The translations under genes were made by a program, and so were the position numbers. DNA of 28,101 nt. It comes from a virus. The stretch is taken from positions 1-28,101 of IMG/VR virus record IMGVR_UViG_3300011115_000405; one strand, given 5' to 3'. The number at the start of each line of letters is the position of its first letter. Position 1 is the stretch's first letter. The notes below the pieces were generated by a model, which saw nothing but the letters and a program-made list of their open reading frames with translations, ran no database searches and was not told the DNA's origin. Positions 7,447 to 25,515 of this stretch are shown here, piece after piece.

Positions 7447-7463
7447 CTTGCCGGAGCATCGCG

Positions 7464-7952
7464 ATGAATGAGTTAACGCAAGAACGTCTCAAAGAATGTT
7501 TGACCTATGTGCCCGCTACAGGAAAATTTTATTGGCGAATGTCGCGCGGCGCGGCGCGGAGAGGGACCGTTGCAGGGGCGGTAGATGCTTACGGCTATGT
7601 GAATGTCCGCATAGACGGTAAGCTATACAAAGCTCACAGATTGGCGTGGTTGTACGAACATGGGGCGTGGCCGGGCGGCGTCATAGACCACATGAACAAC
7701 AACCCCAGCGACAACCGTTTAGTTAACCTGCGCGATGTATCTCAATCGGTAAACATGCACAACGCCAAGGTGCGTACCGGTTCGCGCAGCGGGGTTGCGG
7801 GCGTTCGGTGGCGCGCGGATCGCGGATGTTGGATAGCCACCATTCGAGTGGGGTACGCCCAGCACTATTTAGGTTCTTTTGCATCTGTAGACGACGCCAT
7901 TGCTGCGCGAAAAATGTCGGAGCAGCAGATGCTGGCGGTTATCGGAAAATAA
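7464..7952 (+). CDS. HNH endonuclease with AP2 domain (homing type)
   Basis: A 162-residue free-standing endonuclease. Residues about 50-100 form an HNH_3 domain with AHRLAW, the IDHMNNNPSDNRLVNLR core and a final SVNMHN. Residues about 110-155 form an AP2-type DNA-binding domain (SGVAGVRWRADRGCWIATI, then YLGSFASVDDAIAAR). This pairing is typical of phage homing endonucleases, which nick or cut alleles lacking the gene and spread into neighbours. It is wedged between the DNA polymerase and primase genes, a common landing place. GGAG lies 8 nt before the ATG, and an upstream in-frame extension into the polymerase gene is rejected for that reason. It appears intact; activity and target cannot be read from sequence. 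Confidence 0.93.
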   Translation: MNELTQERLKECLTYVPATGKFYWRMSRGAARRGTVAGAVDAYGYVNVRIDGKLYKAHRLAWLYEHGAWPGGVIDHMNNNPSDNRLVNLRDVSQSVNMHNAKVRTGSRSGVAGVRWRADRGCWIATIRVGYAQHYLGSFASVDDAIAARKMSEQQMLAVIGK

Positions 7953-7964
7953 AAGGGGTAGGAC

Positions 7965-10304
7965 ATGCAAGAACAACAATTCTACGATTACATTACGGGG
8001 CTTGCCCCGGCAGGCGAGACGGCGCTGCTGGTGCGCCAGAAGCCCGTCATGCGCGACGGCGAACAGCAGATGCACGCAGACGGCGTGCCTAAGTACACTT
8101 GGCCCGCGTATATGCCTACCAAGCCGCGCAAGGAAGGCGAGGCGTGGTATCTCAACACCGGCTCATTCATGGTGTCACGCTTCCTCGACGGCAAGCCCAG
8201 CGCCAGCGCCGCCAATTGCGATTACGTCCTGTGCATGATGCTGGACGACATTGGCACCAAGTCCAAGGTGCCTCCGCTGCCCCCGACGTGGATCATGGAG
8301 ACCAGCGAGGGGTCGTTCCAGTGGGGCTACGGCTTTACCGAGCAGCCGTCCAAGGGCGAGTTCAGCGCGGCCATCACCGCCATTGCGGAGGCCGGCTACA
8401 CGGATCCCGGCGCGACCAACCCTGTACGTAATTTCCGTATTCCCGGATCAGTCAATGTAAAGCCCGGTCGTGATCTCTTCCGTTCACGTTTGGTTGAGTT
8501 CCACCCTGACCGTGAGTATACCCTGCCTCAGATCTGCGAGGCGCTGGGCGTTACGCCAGCGGAGGCGGACACCGCCCGCGTCTTGTCGTTCAAGCTGCGC
8601 GACACCGGCAAGGACACCGTGCTGGAGTGGCTTAATGACAAGGGTCTGGTGCTGTCGCACGTCAACCCAGAGGGCTGGATGGGCGTCGTGTGCCCCAACC
8701 ATGCCGAGCACACGGATGGCCAGATCGGAGCCCGCTACAAGCCTCTGGATCGCTCGTTTTGCTGCTACCACGGCCACTGCGAGGGCTTCAACACGCAGGC
8801 GTTCTTGGCTTGGGTGCATGACAACGGCGGCCCGCGCGTCTCGCCAGGTCTGCGCGACGAGTTGCTGGCCGAGCATATGCAGGCGGCCATGTCCAAGCTG
8901 TCGCCCACTGAGGCGTTCCCTGACGAGGCCGCCAAGGTCATCGCTGAAGTGGAGCGCAAGGAGGTCGGACGTGTTGACAAGGCGAGCTGGTATGAACGCT
9001 TCGCCTACATCGTGGAAGACGATGCTTATTTCGACATGGACGCCCGCACCGAGATCAGCCGGGGCAGCTTCAACGCCATCTTCCGACACGTCAACTGCAA
9101 GAGCATCCACGTCACCGGCAAGAGCGCCCGGCGGATTGAGGCCAGCGTGTGTTACGACGAGAACCGCAGCGCCGCCAACGCCCGCCTGCTGCGCGGCATC
9201 ACCTATGCTGCGGGTGACGGCGTCCTCGTCTCACGCGACGGCGACGTGTACGGCAACCGCTGGCGCGACGCGCGGCCTGATCTGACCGGCGTGGGCGTTG
9301 GCGACGTGTCCCGGTGGCTGGACCATTGCCGGGTGCTGGTGCCTGAGGAAGCCGAGTTGAACCATTGCCTCGACGTGATGGCGTTTAAGCTCCAGAACCC
9401 CCGCGTCAAGGTCAACCACGCGATCCTGCACGGCGGTGACGAGGGTTCCGGCAAGGACACCATGTGGGCTCCGTTTATCTGGTCTGTGTGCGGTCCAGGT
9501 CTCAAGAACCGGGGTCTGGTGGACAGTGACGGGCTTACCTCGCAATGGGGGTACGCGTTGGAATCGGAGATCCTGATCCTGAACGAGTTGAAGGAGCCCG
9601 ACGCCAAGGAGCGGCGCACCCTCGCCAACAAGCTCAAGCCCATCATTGCTGCGCCGCCGGAGACGCTGCCGATCAACCGCAAGGGCCTGCACCCTTACGA
9701 CATGGTGAACCGCATGATGGTGCTGGCGTTTACGAACGATCCGGTGCCGATCTCAATATCGTCCGCTGATCGCCGTTGGTTTTGCATTTGGTCAACGGCG
9801 GGGCGTATGCCCGCAGACGAGGCGCAGGCGATGTGGCGCTGGTATCGCTCCGGCGGGTTTGAAACCATCGCCCGGTGGCTCGCTGACCGCGACGTGTCGA
9901 AGTTCAATCCGGCAGCGCCGCCCATGTGGACTGAGTTCAAGGAAAACCTAATTGAGAACGGCATGAGCATCGCCGAGAGTTATATCGTGGACCAGATCCG
10001 CGCCAAGTCGGGCGAGTTTAGGCGCGGCGTGGTCGCCACGCCATTCTTCAAGATTTGCGAAAGCCTGACTAATGGCGCACCTGGCGGCGTCAAGATTCCG
10101 CAGGCGGCGTTGCTTCACGCCCTCAAGGAGGCCGGGTGGATGGACATGGGGCGCATCGCATCGTTCGAGCATTCCAGTAAACGCCACATCTACGCTGCGC
10201 CCGATCTGGCGCGGTCGCAGACCAAAAGCTATCTGCGAAACCTGTTAGAGCCTGTCGCCAGCGCGGAAGGTAACGTGCGCGATTTTCCCGGCAAGAAACC
10301 CTGA
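7965..10304 (+). CDS. RepB-like primase fused to SF3/D5-type helicase (DUF5906-like)
   Basis: A 779-residue two-domain replication protein. The N-terminal 200 residues resemble RepB/AEP-type primases: a YVLCMMLDDIG strand (Asp94, Asp95), a TSEGSFQWGY block and RNFRIPGSVNVK. A probable zinc-binding segment follows (CPNHAEH at 243-249 and CCYHGHC at 266-272). The C-terminal half is a P-loop helicase with Walker A GGDEGSGKDT (490-499), Walker B EILILNELKE (535-544), an LAFTND sensor and an SADRRWF arginine-finger motif, as in SF3/D5 and DUF5906 proteins. It should prime and unwind DNA at the fork with the upstream polymerase. An AGGGGTAGG lies just before the ATG. It is the last gene of the plus-strand replication operon and is followed by a terminator. 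Confidence 0.94.
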   Translation: MQEQQFYDYITGLAPAGETALLVRQKPVMRDGEQQMHADGVPKYTWPAYMPTKPRKEGEAWYLNTGSFMVSRFLDGKPSASAANCDYVLCMMLDDIGTKSKVPPLPPTWIMETSEGSFQWGYGFTEQPSKGEFSAAITAIAEAGYTDPGATNPVRNFRIPGSVNVKPGRDLFRSRLVEFHPDREYTLPQICEALGVTPAEADTARVLSFKLRDTGKDTVLEWLNDKGLVLSHVNPEGWMGVVCPNHAEHTDGQIGARYKPLDRSFCCYHGHCEGFNTQAFLAWVHDNGGPRVSPGLRDELLAEHMQAAMSKLSPTEAFPDEAAKVIAEVERKEVGRVDKASWYERFAYIVEDDAYFDMDARTEISRGSFNAIFRHVNCKSIHVTGKSARRIEASVCYDENRSAANARLLRGITYAAGDGVLVSRDGDVYGNRWRDARPDLTGVGVGDVSRWLDHCRVLVPEEAELNHCLDVMAFKLQNPRVKVNHAILHGGDEGSGKDTMWAPFIWSVCGPGLKNRGLVDSDGLTSQWGYALESEILILNELKEPDAKERRTLANKLKPIIAAPPETLPINRKGLHPYDMVNRMMVLAFTNDPVPISISSADRRWFCIWSTAGRMPADEAQAMWRWYRSGGFETIARWLADRDVSKFNPAAPPMWTEFKENLIENGMSIAESYIVDQIRAKSGEFRRGVVATPFFKICESLTNGAPGGVKIPQAALLHALKEAGWMDMGRIASFEHSSKRHIYAAPDLARSQTKSYLRNLLEPVASAEGNVRDFPGKKP

Positions 10305-12116: not shown

Positions 12117-12469
12117 GGCCTGCCCTCCGTCAGGAACGCAGGCGCGTCCAGCGGCTCATCGCCGGGCCTGTCGGGCATAGTAGCGCGGGGCATGGCGGCG
12201 GGTGCCTGCGCTTGCGCCAGGTCGCGCACCACCAGTTCGAAGTAACCCGCGCCGTCCTGCCAGTGGTCGGGAAAAGACGGGTCGCCGCACAGGATGCGCG
12301 ACACCTTGTCGGCGATGACCTCCAGCGCCTGCGCCTGCGCCACGTCCAGCCGGTTCCAATTGCGCGAGGTTCGCATGACGTTCTTGATGGCTTGCGAGTA
12401 ACCGGCGACTTCGCGGAATAGCCCGTGGGTCTGTTCTCGCTCGCTCAGGATCTGGTCTGTAATGCTCAT
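12113..12469 (-). CDS. DUF6378-like phage protein
   Basis: A 118-residue protein fitting the DUF6378 pattern: ILSEREQTHG near the N terminus, a run of helix with QAIKNVM, then DVAQAQALEVIADKVSRILCGDPSFPDHWQDGAGYFELV. The family is widespread in phages and has no assigned function; the spaced acidic and His residues (Glu10, His15, Asp/Glu near ADK, His in PDHW) recall all-alpha nucleotide pyrophosphohydrolases, but that is only a resemblance. The C-terminal 25 residues are Pro/Ala-rich and probably disordered. The start overlaps the upstream stop in an ATGA, and the stop overlaps the next gene's GTG, so it sits in a fully coupled string. Confidence 0.82.
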   Translation of the reverse strand: MSITDQILSEREQTHGLFREVAGYSQAIKNVMRTSRNWNRLDVAQAQALEVIADKVSRILCGDPSFPDHWQDGAGYFELVVRDLAQAQAPAAMPRATMPDRPGDEPLDAPAFLTEGRP

Positions 12470-12948
12470 TTTTTACGGTCCTTTTTCGGATTTAAGGCGT
12501 TCATGACGGTGGTGTGGTCGCGGTTGCAGAATATCGCTATCTTTTTCAGAGACCACCCATGGCGGCGCAGGGCGGCGTAGACGTCGGCGCGGGCACGGGT
12601 GTAGGGCAGGGTGCGGCTTGGACCCATGGCTTGGTCAAAGGTCATGCCGTGAGGCGCAAGCGCCTCTTGTGCGATGCGCCTGGCGGCGCGGGGCGGGGGT
12701 ACGATCGGCGGCGCAGGCGGCGCGTTCGATTTGATTTCGGCTATGACTTCGGCTTTAACCTCGTCTCTAAGCTCGGCCTTAAGTTCTTCGCGAATTTCGG
12801 TCTCAAGCTCCACGTCGATCTCAACGGCGAGTTCGACGATCAGCTTAGGGTCGGGCGTCGGCGGTTGACGCCATGGCGCCGGGGGCGGTCCGTTCAACCT
12901 AGCGCGCACGGCCTTGTAGTGGTCCATTAGCTCGTCATAGTAGCTCAT
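12466..12948 (-). CDS. Protein with C-terminal DnaA domain IV-like DNA-binding domain
   Basis: A 160-residue protein in three parts. Residues 1-35 are a Pro-rich lead; residues 36-73 are a strongly charged Glu/Lys helix with heptad spacing, a likely coiled coil; residues about 90-151 resemble DnaA domain IV. The closing motif NRDHTTVMNAL (142-152) matches the DnaA signature in which the DHTTV residues contact the DnaA box, preceded by a helix (ARADVYAALRRHGWSLKKIAIFC) like that of Bac_DnaA_C. It has no AAA+ domain, so it can bind DNA but not act as an ATP switch. It may direct host or phage replication factors to the phage origin, or compete with host DnaA. The repeat-rich candidate origin lies about 1.8 kb away. 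Confidence 0.85.
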   Translation of the reverse strand: MSYYDELMDHYKAVRARLNGPPPAPWRQPPTPDPKLIVELAVEIDVELETEIREELKAELRDEVKAEVIAEIKSNAPPAPPIVPPPRAARRIAQEALAPHGMTFDQAMGPSRTLPYTRARADVYAALRRHGWSLKKIAIFCNRDHTTVMNALNPKKDRKK

Positions 12949-14428: not shown

Positions 14429-14614
14429 TTACCAAGTGAAGGATGCTTTGAAGGTCTCGCCGGGATATTGCGCCTGCGCTGCAGCGACCGCATCCTTGCA
14501 AGTGCGATAGGCGTTGGTATTCCATGCGAATGACCACACGAGGTGCGGCGCAGTCTTGGGCGTGCGCTTGTGCCAGACGTAAATCTTGCGAGGGTAAACT
14601 TTGAAGGTGCTCAT
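14429..14614 (-). CDS. Hypothetical small protein, first gene of the minus-strand operon
   Basis: A 61-residue basic, aromatic protein (STFKVYPRKIYVWHKRTPK, then HLVWSFAWNTNAYRTCKDAVAAAQAQYPG and a final FKASFTW). The alternation of aromatic and basic residues with one central Ala-rich helix suggests a small beta-alpha domain. It resembles short phage proteins that start KVYVWHKR, for which I know no function. AGGA precedes the ATG by 9 nt. It lies nearest the repeat-rich non-coding region, so the promoter for the whole accessory operon should be just upstream, though I see no good hexamer pair there. Confidence 0.75.
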   Translation of the reverse strand: MSTFKVYPRKIYVWHKRTPKTAPHLVWSFAWNTNAYRTCKDAVAAAQAQYPGETFKASFTW

Positions 14615-14786
14615 TTGTCTGTCCTAATGTTTGGCGTCTGCGCGCCGTTTCGACAAGAATCACTGTAAAGGATTTTCGAGCATTAGCAAGCGGAAAATGC
14701 AGGAATGGCGAAAAAAGTTTTGGGCTAGTGCTTGGTCGGGCTTAGGCGTCGCATTAGGCGTGCGAATTTCCCAGTTTTCCGGGCTG

Positions 14787-14804
14787 TTAGGCTATTTAGG
14801 CTAT
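14787..14804 (+). repeat. Iteron pair TTAGGCTAT x2
   Basis: Two perfect direct copies of TTAGGCTAT lie at the left edge of the AT-rich patch. They differ by one base (T for C) from the main iteron TTAGGCCAT. Two further TTAGGCGT half-copies precede them at 14742 and 14754. Confidence 0.75.
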
Positions 14805-14850
14805 TATTTATATATACCTTTAGAAATTTAAATGTGTATTGTATAGCTCT
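14801..14850. other. AT-rich patch, possible DNA-unwinding element
   Basis: By hand count 40 of 50 bases are A or T, in a genome otherwise well above 50% GC; it includes TTATTTATATATA and AAATTTAAATG. Flanking iterons on both sides suggest duplex opening at an origin, though an AT-rich promoter is also possible. Confidence 0.5.
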
Positions 14851-14891
14851 AGCTGTAGGCTGTGTGGAGCTGTGACGTGTCCCGCGAAACT

Positions 14892-14907
14892 AGCCTAAAT
14901 GGCCTAA
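14892..14907 (-). repeat. Inverted iteron copy
   Basis: AGCCTAAATGGCCTAA is one full TTAGGCCAT plus a truncated second unit (TTAGGCT) in reverse orientation. The same 16-bp block recurs at 15063-15078 and, with one mismatch, at 15164-15179. Confidence 0.75.
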
Positions 14908-15015
14908 GTGATATTTTTTCCCGGTTTTCTGGGGGCTTTTTGCCAAAATGCGTGACAATTAATAGCCAAACAAGACGACTATGTAAACGCCCAACGCCAC
15001 GCCCCGGCACGCGCG

Positions 15016-15051
15016 TTAGGCCATTTAGGCCATTTAGGCCATTTAGGCCAT
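15016..15051 (+). repeat. Four tandem TTAGGCCAT iterons
   Basis: Four perfect head-to-tail copies of the 9-bp unit TTAGGCCAT occupy 15016-15024, 15025-15033, 15034-15042 and 15043-15051. This is the densest iteron cluster in the region. The 9-bp period is close to one helical turn, so bound protein would track slowly round the helix. Confidence 0.9.
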
Positions 15052-15078
15052 TTGCAAACACTAGCCTAAATGGCCTAA
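15034..15078. repeat. 15-bp perfect inverted repeat (potential cruciform)
   Basis: The last iterons (TTAGGCCATTTAGGC, 15034-15048) pair perfectly with GCCTAAATGGCCTAA at 15064-15078 across a 15-nt loop. The right arm is itself the inverted iteron block. As DNA this could extrude a cruciform; as RNA it would be a stable stem-loop with no T-run. Confidence 0.8.
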
Positions 15079-15163
15079 CGCCATGCACGCGCTACTGGCA
15101 CGCCATGCGAGCGCCAGGCAAGCGCAAGCTGGCGCAGGACGCCATGTGCGACTTCCGGCGCGT

Positions 15164-15179
15164 AGCCTAAATGGCCCAA
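15164..15179 (-). repeat. Inverted iteron copy, one mismatch
   Basis: AGCCTAAATGGCCCAA is the third inverted copy of the 16-bp block, with C in place of T in the last unit. It lies 12 nt before the 20-bp tandem repeats. Confidence 0.7.
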
Positions 15180-15190
15180 AACGCCTATGC

Positions 15191-15270
15191 CATTGCCTAG
15201 ATCATGTAGCTATTGCCTTGCTTGTGTTGCTATTGCCTAGATCATGTAGCTATTGCTCAGGTTATGTTAG
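15191..15270 (+). repeat. Four tandem 20-bp repeats upstream of terS
   Basis: Units at 15191-15210, 15211-15230, 15231-15250 and 15251-15270. The consensus is TATTGCCTAGATCATGTAGC; units 1 and 3 are identical except for the first base, while units 2 and 4 share the TATTGC start and degenerate later. A 20-bp period places equivalent bases on the same helix face, as expected for cooperative binding. Candidate ligands are the terminase small subunit (a pac site) or a replication initiator. Confidence 0.88.
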
Positions 15271-15272
15271 AA

Positions 15273-15281
15273 GGGGGGGGG
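15273..15281 (+). repeat. G9 homopolymer run
   Basis: Nine consecutive G followed by AGGG, just downstream of the 20-bp repeats and upstream of the late promoter. A matching C10 run ends the window at 28089-28098. Length is uncertain because homopolymers are prone to sequencing error. Confidence 0.7.
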
Positions 15282-15317
15282 AGGGCCTGCTGCCGCCCGG
15301 TCACGATCACGGAGGGA

Positions 15318-15346
15318 TTGCAAACAATTTTTTTTAAATATAAAAT
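15318..15346 (+). promoter_or_regulatory. Sigma-70-type late promoter overlapping the terS start
   Basis: TTGCAA (15318-15323), a 17-nt A/T-rich spacer containing T8, and TAAAAT (15341-15346) give a near-consensus -35/-10 pair at ideal spacing. Transcription would begin at about 15352-15354, at or after the likely terS ATG codons (15345, 15354), so terS mRNA from this promoter would be leaderless or would need a longer upstream transcript. It should drive terminase, portal and downstream genes. Confidence 0.6.
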
Positions 15347-15908
15347 GTCTTACATGACATGGCACACGCTCCCACACGAACCGCGCAGGCTTCAGGCAAC
15401 TGAGGCGCGGCTTGACGCAATCTATTGGGCGGCGCGTAATGGCCTGAAGGGCGACACGCTGGCGTTGGCTGCTGGGATGCGTCCGTCTGAGTATCGGCAG
15501 CTCTGCGAGTTTGATCCGCTGACGGAGATGGCGGAACAGAAGGGACGCGCTGACGGCGAGATGGAAGTCTCTGGTATATTGCACGAGGCGGCGCGGCAGG
15601 GCGACGCCAAGGCGGCGCTGGAGATCTTGAAGCACGCGCATGGGTGGACCGCCAAGACGGCTGTAGACATCAGCATCGACCAGACCATATCGGTCAAGCA
15701 CGCCTTGGAGATGGCCCAGCAACGAGTGCTGGAGGGGGCGTTTACTGTCGTGGAACAGTTAGAGGACATGGACTGTGCAAGCACCAATCTATTCGGCTCA
15801 GGACGAGATGGAGCTAATGTCGCGGTTGTGGACGCCCGCGCTGAAGAACGACCCGTTGAAGTTCGTCCTGTACGCATTTCCGTGGGGGCAGAAGGGGACG
15901 CCTCTTGA
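15345..15908 (+). CDS. terS: Terminase small subunit
   Basis: A 187-residue protein directly before the large subunit. The sequence LDAIYWAARNGLKGDTLALAAGMRPSEYRQLCEFDP (about residues 23-58) forms a helix-turn-helix-like DNA-recognition domain, and the following DGEMEVSGILHEAARQGDAKAALEILKHAHGW is the oligomerisation helix pair I associate with small terminases that bind the packaging site and load the ATPase. The C-terminal 45 residues after LEDMDC are Asp/Val/Arg-rich and overlap the terL gene for 134 nt. The start is uncertain: ATG at 15345 or 15354 lies within or just after a -10 box and has no Shine-Dalgarno; a GGAGGG at 15311-15316 is too far upstream. Further upstream codons run through the tandem repeats and are rejected. 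Confidence 0.8.
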   Translation: MSYMTWHTLPHEPRRLQATEARLDAIYWAARNGLKGDTLALAAGMRPSEYRQLCEFDPLTEMAEQKGRADGEMEVSGILHEAARQGDAKAALEILKHAHGWTAKTAVDISIDQTISVKHALEMAQQRVLEGAFTVVEQLEDMDCASTNLFGSGRDGANVAVVDARAEERPVEVRPVRISVGAEGDAS

Positions 15909-25210: not shown

Positions 25211-25515
25211 TGTCGATTAACCTGAAAGCCATCACAACCAGGTTAGGCTATCAGCAAATTACCTCTCTCAGCTCATCCACGGCGCTGACGGTGCCCGCCG
25301 TTGATCTCAACGGTCTTAATTGCCGTCCTGTGATCGCTCTCATTACCCCCGAAGGTCAGGCTGTGCGTTGGCGCGATGACAACATCGCCCCCACAACGAC
25401 CGTTGGGATGCCTCTCGCGGTTGGCGTGACACTTCAGTACGATGGCGACCTGACCATGATTCGGTTTATTGAGCAGGTGGCGGGAGCCAAGCTCAACATC
25501 AGCTACTACGCCTAA
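25210..25515 (+). CDS. Hypothetical virion-associated small protein
   Basis: A 101-residue protein with a beta-rich pattern (LGYQQITSLSSSTALTVPAV, RPVIALITPEGQAVRWRDDN, GMPLAVGVTLQYDGDLTMIRFI). Similar short proteins with a closing strand like LNISYYA occur in phage structural clusters; I know no specific function. The ATG at 25210 has AGGAG six bases upstream; the ATG one codon earlier (25207) would have a spacing of only three, though it makes a neat ATGA overlap with the preceding gene. It lies before two helical genes and the scaffold, so a head-completion role is possible. Confidence 0.75.
   Translation: MSINLKAITTRLGYQQITSLSSSTALTVPAVDLNGLNCRPVIALITPEGQAVRWRDDNIAPTTTVGMPLAVGVTLQYDGDLTMIRFIEQVAGAKLNISYYA

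Follow-up and report, generated by a model that had tools for sequence, protein, structure and literature searches.

In SaPIs, the replication origin consists of an A+T-rich stretch flanked by sets of iterons, and the alpha protein of phage P4 binds its origin via a C-terminal winged helix. SaPI Rep and SCCmec Cch2 each recognise an iteron origin through the C-terminal domain (PMC7581432), and in the Vibrio cholerae PLE, the initiator RepA has a DNA-binding domain that covaries with the origin, both being exchanged in modular fashion (PMC8263062). Here we analyze an iteron array in a freshwater podovirus-like contig, a 28,101-base IMG/VR record that is referred to below, over its whole length, as the window. 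With a probability of about 0.86, this array is the replication origin of the phage, which would be bound by a self-loading primase-helicase via the tip of a C-terminal hairpin, with melting of the A+T-rich gap; this estimate is based on comparative sequence analysis.

The window encodes the small and large terminase subunits (terS and terL), a P22-like portal, a major head protein, a family A polymerase (PolA), an exonuclease, an SSB-like protein, an SNF2-type helicase and the primase-helicase; an HNH (homing-type) endonuclease gene is located at 7458-7949, between PolA and the primase-helicase, and HNH-like genes are placed elsewhere in the relatives (in L083, beside terS and within the structural region). 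The array is located between divergent genes, in agreement with the first-pass annotation, with the small minus-strand genes ending at 14614 and the terS ATG at 15345. The features of this region are as follows.

14742..14759, minus strand: two TTAGGC half-sites (at 14742 and 14754; TTAGGC on the plus strand), left of the array (sequence)
14785..14854, no strand: A+T-rich patch between the divergent unit blocks, candidate unwinding element, 77-78% A+T per 60 nt (window maximum)
14787..14804, minus strand: left block of two tandem units, TTAGGCTAT twice on the plus strand, i.e., the canonical unit TAGCCTAAA on the minus strand (sequence)
14890..14907, plus strand: right block 1, CTAGCCTAA-ATGGCCTAA, in the opposite orientation to the left block (sequence)
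15016..15051, minus strand: four tandem copies of TTAGGCCAT, all perfect, with a 9-bp period (sequence)
15061..15078, plus strand: right block 2, CTAGCCTAA-ATGGCCTAA (sequence)
15162..15179, plus strand: right block 3, GTAGCCTAA-ATGGCCCAA, each with one mismatch (sequence)
15345..15908, plus strand: terS, the landmark downstream of the array in all relatives (gene call)

The repeat unit, TGGCCTAAA in the shorthand used here, occurs as perfect TTAGGCYAT 8 times within 14742-15179 and once in the rest of the window (at 25243), compared to a mean of 0.03 and a maximum of 1 in the same region after 2000 dinucleotide shuffles. The segment 14801-14850 has an A+T content of 80%. Across the window, 50-mers with at least 80% A+T occur only with starts at 14791-14803, between the left pair of units and the first of the inverted blocks. 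Judging from the shuffle counts and the window-wide 50-mer scan, the array and the A+T patch are far beyond chance expectation. The two direct copies, the four perfect tandem copies, the two half-sites and the 80% A+T patch that had been described on first reading were all recovered; the three inverted blocks are present as well, with one perfect unit of two in each of blocks 1 and 2, and none in block 3. The GC skew along the window tracks gene orientation and has no inflection at the array, which makes it uninformative as an origin marker.

Several additional sequence elements were detected in and around this region. Two probably spurious ORFs of 79 and 102 aa overlap the array and encode translated repeat units (e.g., NGLNGLNGL), and the isolated exact TTAGGCTAT at 25243-25251, outside the array and inside a structural gene, is probably a chance occurrence. 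Imperfect copies of TTTCCCRGTTTTCYGGG are found on either side of the A+T patch (14766-14786 and 14919-14938). Two elements between the array and terS were missed in the first-pass annotation: a 20-bp sequence, ATTGCCTAGATCATGTAGCT, repeated in tandem approximately 3.5 times at 15192-15267, in the place of which relatives carry other tandem repeats (CCCCCTG in L004, TGCCC in L005 and CGCTCGC in L010), and, at 15273-15350, a G-run followed by GGTCACGG-AGGG, a T-tract and TAAAAT. The latter element is conserved despite different arrays in L007, L008, L011, L012 and L022, and is a possible late promoter or cos-like site.

Relatives of the phage were collected via TerL (80 loci) and, in further sets, via the primase-helicase, for a total of 232 sequences including the window, 152 of which have a non-redundant upstream region available. 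An array is found at most 0.9 kb before terS in nearly all of these 152, exceeding shuffled controls, whereas the unit itself varies by lineage: TGACCCAAA, TTGTCCACA, TGACTCACA, TGACCCACA, TGACCTA, TTGCCTA, CTGCCGAA, TGACCAAA, TGACTAACA and others. The shared layout comprises a 9-bp period (354 of about 390 same-strand short spacings) and diverging blocks around an A+T-rich gap of about 100 nt; in 78 of 88 loci, two units of opposite orientation are separated by a gap of 60-190 nt (median 100). In all 78 loci with diverging units, the gap is richer in A+T than the region, a comparison that is biased upward by the choice of the A+T-richest qualifying gap at each locus; the A+T-richest 50-mer lies inside the chosen gap in 67 of the 78. 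No clusters of units outside the array were detected in 1.1 Mb of the relatives' sequence, and in approximately one quarter of the relatives, the units are weak or ill-defined. A search of the array DNA against the phage collection yielded no match, which is attributable to unit turnover. For the same family, the absence of the repeats in close relatives, which had been put forward as a refutation of the origin, turns out to be misleading: TTAGGCCAT is missing from most relatives because it has been replaced by another unit, with the layout retained. The relatives L234-L242 were binned into MAGs labelled actinobacterium, Mucilaginibacter, Rhizobium, Armatimonadetes and Betaproteobacteria, and are probably for the most part mis-binned phage contigs.

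The protein that covaries with the unit was sought column by column in the alignments, where the power of a residue to predict the unit class was scored (NMI) across 62 loci (34 with TGACCCAA and 28 with TTGTCCACA). An NMI of 1.0 was obtained at five columns of the primase-helicase, corresponding to window residues 731, 732, 734, 737 and 750, with 0.92 and 0.90 at residues 728 and 742, respectively. Third codon positions at invariant residues of the same protein give bin means of 0.03-0.15, with one codon within the segment at 0.76; therefore plain linkage is unlikely to be the cause of the covariation. With best-column values of 0.20 for TerS, 0.25 for TerL, 0.25 for PolA and 0.30 for the SSB-like protein, these four were ruled out as the partner, and the exonuclease and the SNF2 helicase (best NMI 0.48 and 0.61, in small samples of 28 and 18) do not covary completely either. 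No further copies of the C-terminal domain, of the kind expected for Odn-like decoys, were found when the relatives' other proteins were searched. Taken together, these observations strongly support binding specificity of the primase-helicase for the unit, as predicted from covariation. The features of this protein are given below.

7965..10304, plus strand: primase-helicase, 779 aa, with an AEP-like N-terminus, a DUF5906 SF3-type helicase and a C-terminal winged-helix-like domain
10014..10244, plus strand: predicted C-terminal winged-helix-like domain, residues 684-760 (AlphaFold2 models)
10149..10190, plus strand: putative specificity segment GRIASFEHSSKRHI, residues 729-742, at the tip of a beta-hairpin (covariation)
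10212-10214, plus strand: covarying residue 750 (covariation)

Primase and SF3/D5-like helicase are combined here in one protein (PHROG DNA primase, Pfam DUF5906). In the AlphaFold2 models, the specificity segment occupies, with high pLDDT, the tip of a hairpin (strands 726-731 and 740-744) behind the helix 713-722, an arrangement that appears winged-helix-like. Foldseek searches with the whole protein retrieved the C-terminal region of NrS-1 polymerase (E 4e-15) and the SaPI5 primase-helicase (7ola; E 1e-6), along with poxvirus D5/E5-type and African swine fever virus primase-helicases and the AEP domain of the S-2L PrimPol. The label 'winged helix' is based on topology because the isolated C-terminal domain had no significant Foldseek match.

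The position of the array directly upstream of terS, together with the frequent location of phage pac and cos sites near this gene, would fit a packaging site bound by TerS. However, the terminase subunits are poor predictors of the unit (see the values above), and in L119 and L220, the terS-terL DNA is 90% identical whereas the arrays are different, unalignable over most of their length, so that a packaging function is extremely improbable. The primases of these two phages share about 88% DNA identity, yet their specificity segments differ.

An operator region, in which the repeats are regulator sites for divergent promoters located within the A+T patch, is also improbable, if not to the same extreme. 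The genes do diverge around the region, and weak promoter-like matches are present at 14832-14803 (minus strand) and before terS, but the unit tracks a replicative primase-helicase, and many units across 400 nt would be excessive for an operator. Moreover, although several genes between the primase and terS follow lineage, none segregates fully, that is, none is present in all loci of one unit class and in none of the other (best 0.83 vs 0.07).

The gene for one further candidate binder lies between the primase-helicase gene and the array.

12469..12948, minus strand: small protein (160 aa) with a DnaA domain IV-like HTH, motif RDHTTVMNAL (domain match)

The presence of this protein raises the possibility of a DnaA-type origin, where the units would be divergent versions of DnaA boxes, recognised by this phage protein or by the host DnaA, and the unit of one lineage, TTGTCCACA, is indeed one base off the DnaA box TTATCCACA. 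This is, however, the only lineage within one base; the window unit TGGCCTAAA is unlike the DnaA boxes TTATNCACA, as had been noted from the window, and the unit follows the primase-helicase. The DnaA-HTH gene was found in only 21 of the 128 loci that have both primase and terS, and the protein was accordingly rejected as a general binder or initiator. We consider such an origin very unlikely; host DnaA could still act as a helper in the TTGTCCACA lineage. Of the two binders suggested in the first-pass annotation, the primase-helicase is thus retained as the predicted one, by covariation, and the DnaA-domain protein, lacking in most array-bearing relatives, is not. In a separate observation, all five loci with primase and terS that carry at least four GTTKACRT repeats before terS (L083, L037, L042, L050 and L160) encode the DnaA-like HTH protein, and these repeats are perhaps its own sites, a second repeat system.

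The association between the primase-helicase and its unit was also examined on a tree built from residues 5-690 of the protein, with the specificity segment excluded. The unit class changes at least 5 times on this tree, and K732/R734/D737 switch along with it in 5 of 5 cases (sign test 0.0625, the minimum attainable with five pairs). On the 122-locus tree, C8/R734 yielded 8 supported independent pairs (on average, 6.5 changing the same way and 0 the opposite way; median p 0.03) and T4/D737 yielded 10 (7.7 the same way and 0.3 opposite; median p 0.016); with so few independent switches (8-10 supported pairs), these phylogeny-aware p values are modest.

To number unit positions, the units were placed in a common register (T G A C C C A A A, T T G T C C A C A, T G A C T C A C A and T G G C C T A A A), a pattern that was picked after the units had been seen and leaves 35 of 123 loci outside it. 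Of the 88 training loci, 87 obey the rule that links Arg734 to C at position 8 of the unit, and 84 obey the one that links Asp737 to T at position 4. In the held-out set, 34 loci with a callable unit, the respective counts are 32 and 33, a weak test for the other class because the majority of these 34 loci carry R734. The rule was recorded before the held-out loci were seen, in the version that pairs G at position 3 with T at position 4; T4 alone was scored because non-Asp units with G3 C4 exist. The held-out exceptions, L325, L327 and L237, have weak or unusual arrays. In a chemically sensible pairing, Arg734 would contact the guanine opposite C8, and Asp737 the cytosine opposite G3. A protein-DNA recognition code thus appears to be readable from the sequences themselves.

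The interpretation of iterons with an A+T-rich element as a phage origin, already proposed from the window, is the best supported one, in view of the conserved place and layout, the lack of clusters elsewhere and the covariation with the primase-helicase. Tandem short iterons with an A+T-rich element are found here as in the origins of self-loading primase-helicases, and covariation points to the C-terminal domain as the determinant of origin specificity. On the model of SaPI Rep and SCCmec Cch2, we propose that the primase-helicase binds each 9-bp unit with the hairpin tip of its winged-helix-like domain, assembles on both diverging blocks that flank the A+T gap, melts the gap and loads itself as a ring helicase; it would then prime synthesis for the phage PolA, with replication starting at the array. 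More tentatively, at slightly less than even odds, the primase-helicase and the array could form a fast-switching initiator-origin pair, in which a hairpin of about 8 residues serves as a modular DNA-reading head and the arrays are rewritten in step, making otherwise near-identical phages mutually incompatible replicons; the selective pressure might come from parasites or nucleases that target origins, or from relatives in the course of co-infection.

These results predict an origin and an initiator for a large group of uncultured freshwater phages. The residue-to-base assignments for an initiator helicase imply that origin specificity could be swapped via a handful of residues, and the relatives provide a natural series for the study of how a protein and many sites change together, and why phages keep altering their origin.

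Among known systems, SaPI Rep (SaPIbov1 and SaPI5) is likewise a helicase initiator, fused to a primase in SaPI5, with a C-terminal domain that reads short iterons (PMC7581432). The SaPI origin, however, is directly downstream of rep, whereas the array described here lies before terS, at a distance of about 4.5 kb from the primase-helicase gene, in a phage that has its own PolA; a literature search found no mapped residue code for SaPI Rep. SCCmec Cch2 is also a D5/Primase_Cterm-type helicase whose isolated C-terminal domain binds direct repeats (PMC7581432), but it belongs to a staphylococcal element with only three repeats (AAGTG) and a separately encoded primase. As in the present case, P4 alpha combines primase, helicase and origin binder in a single chain (fusion: PMC7145576); P4 has crr in addition to ori, whereas a second array was not found here in 1.1 Mb of the relatives, and the P4 origin-binding domain is absent among the Foldseek matches listed for the isolated C-terminal domain. 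The closest solved structure for the helicase part is that of the NrS-1 primase-polymerase, for which 8-nt recognition sites have been proposed, with no iteron array described in PMC7102993. The PLE system of RepA, origin and the phage nuclease Odn shows module covariation as observed here, but RepA belongs to the unrelated RepA_N family and has long semi-palindromic iterons and two specificity groups, compared to many in these phages. Thus, iteron origins read by a primase-helicase and covariation of an initiator domain with the origin (PLE RepA, PMC8263062) are already known. A partial literature search found no description of a switching iteron/primase-helicase pair, and what appears to be new is the phage family, the repeated specificity switching under a conserved layout and the residue-level code.
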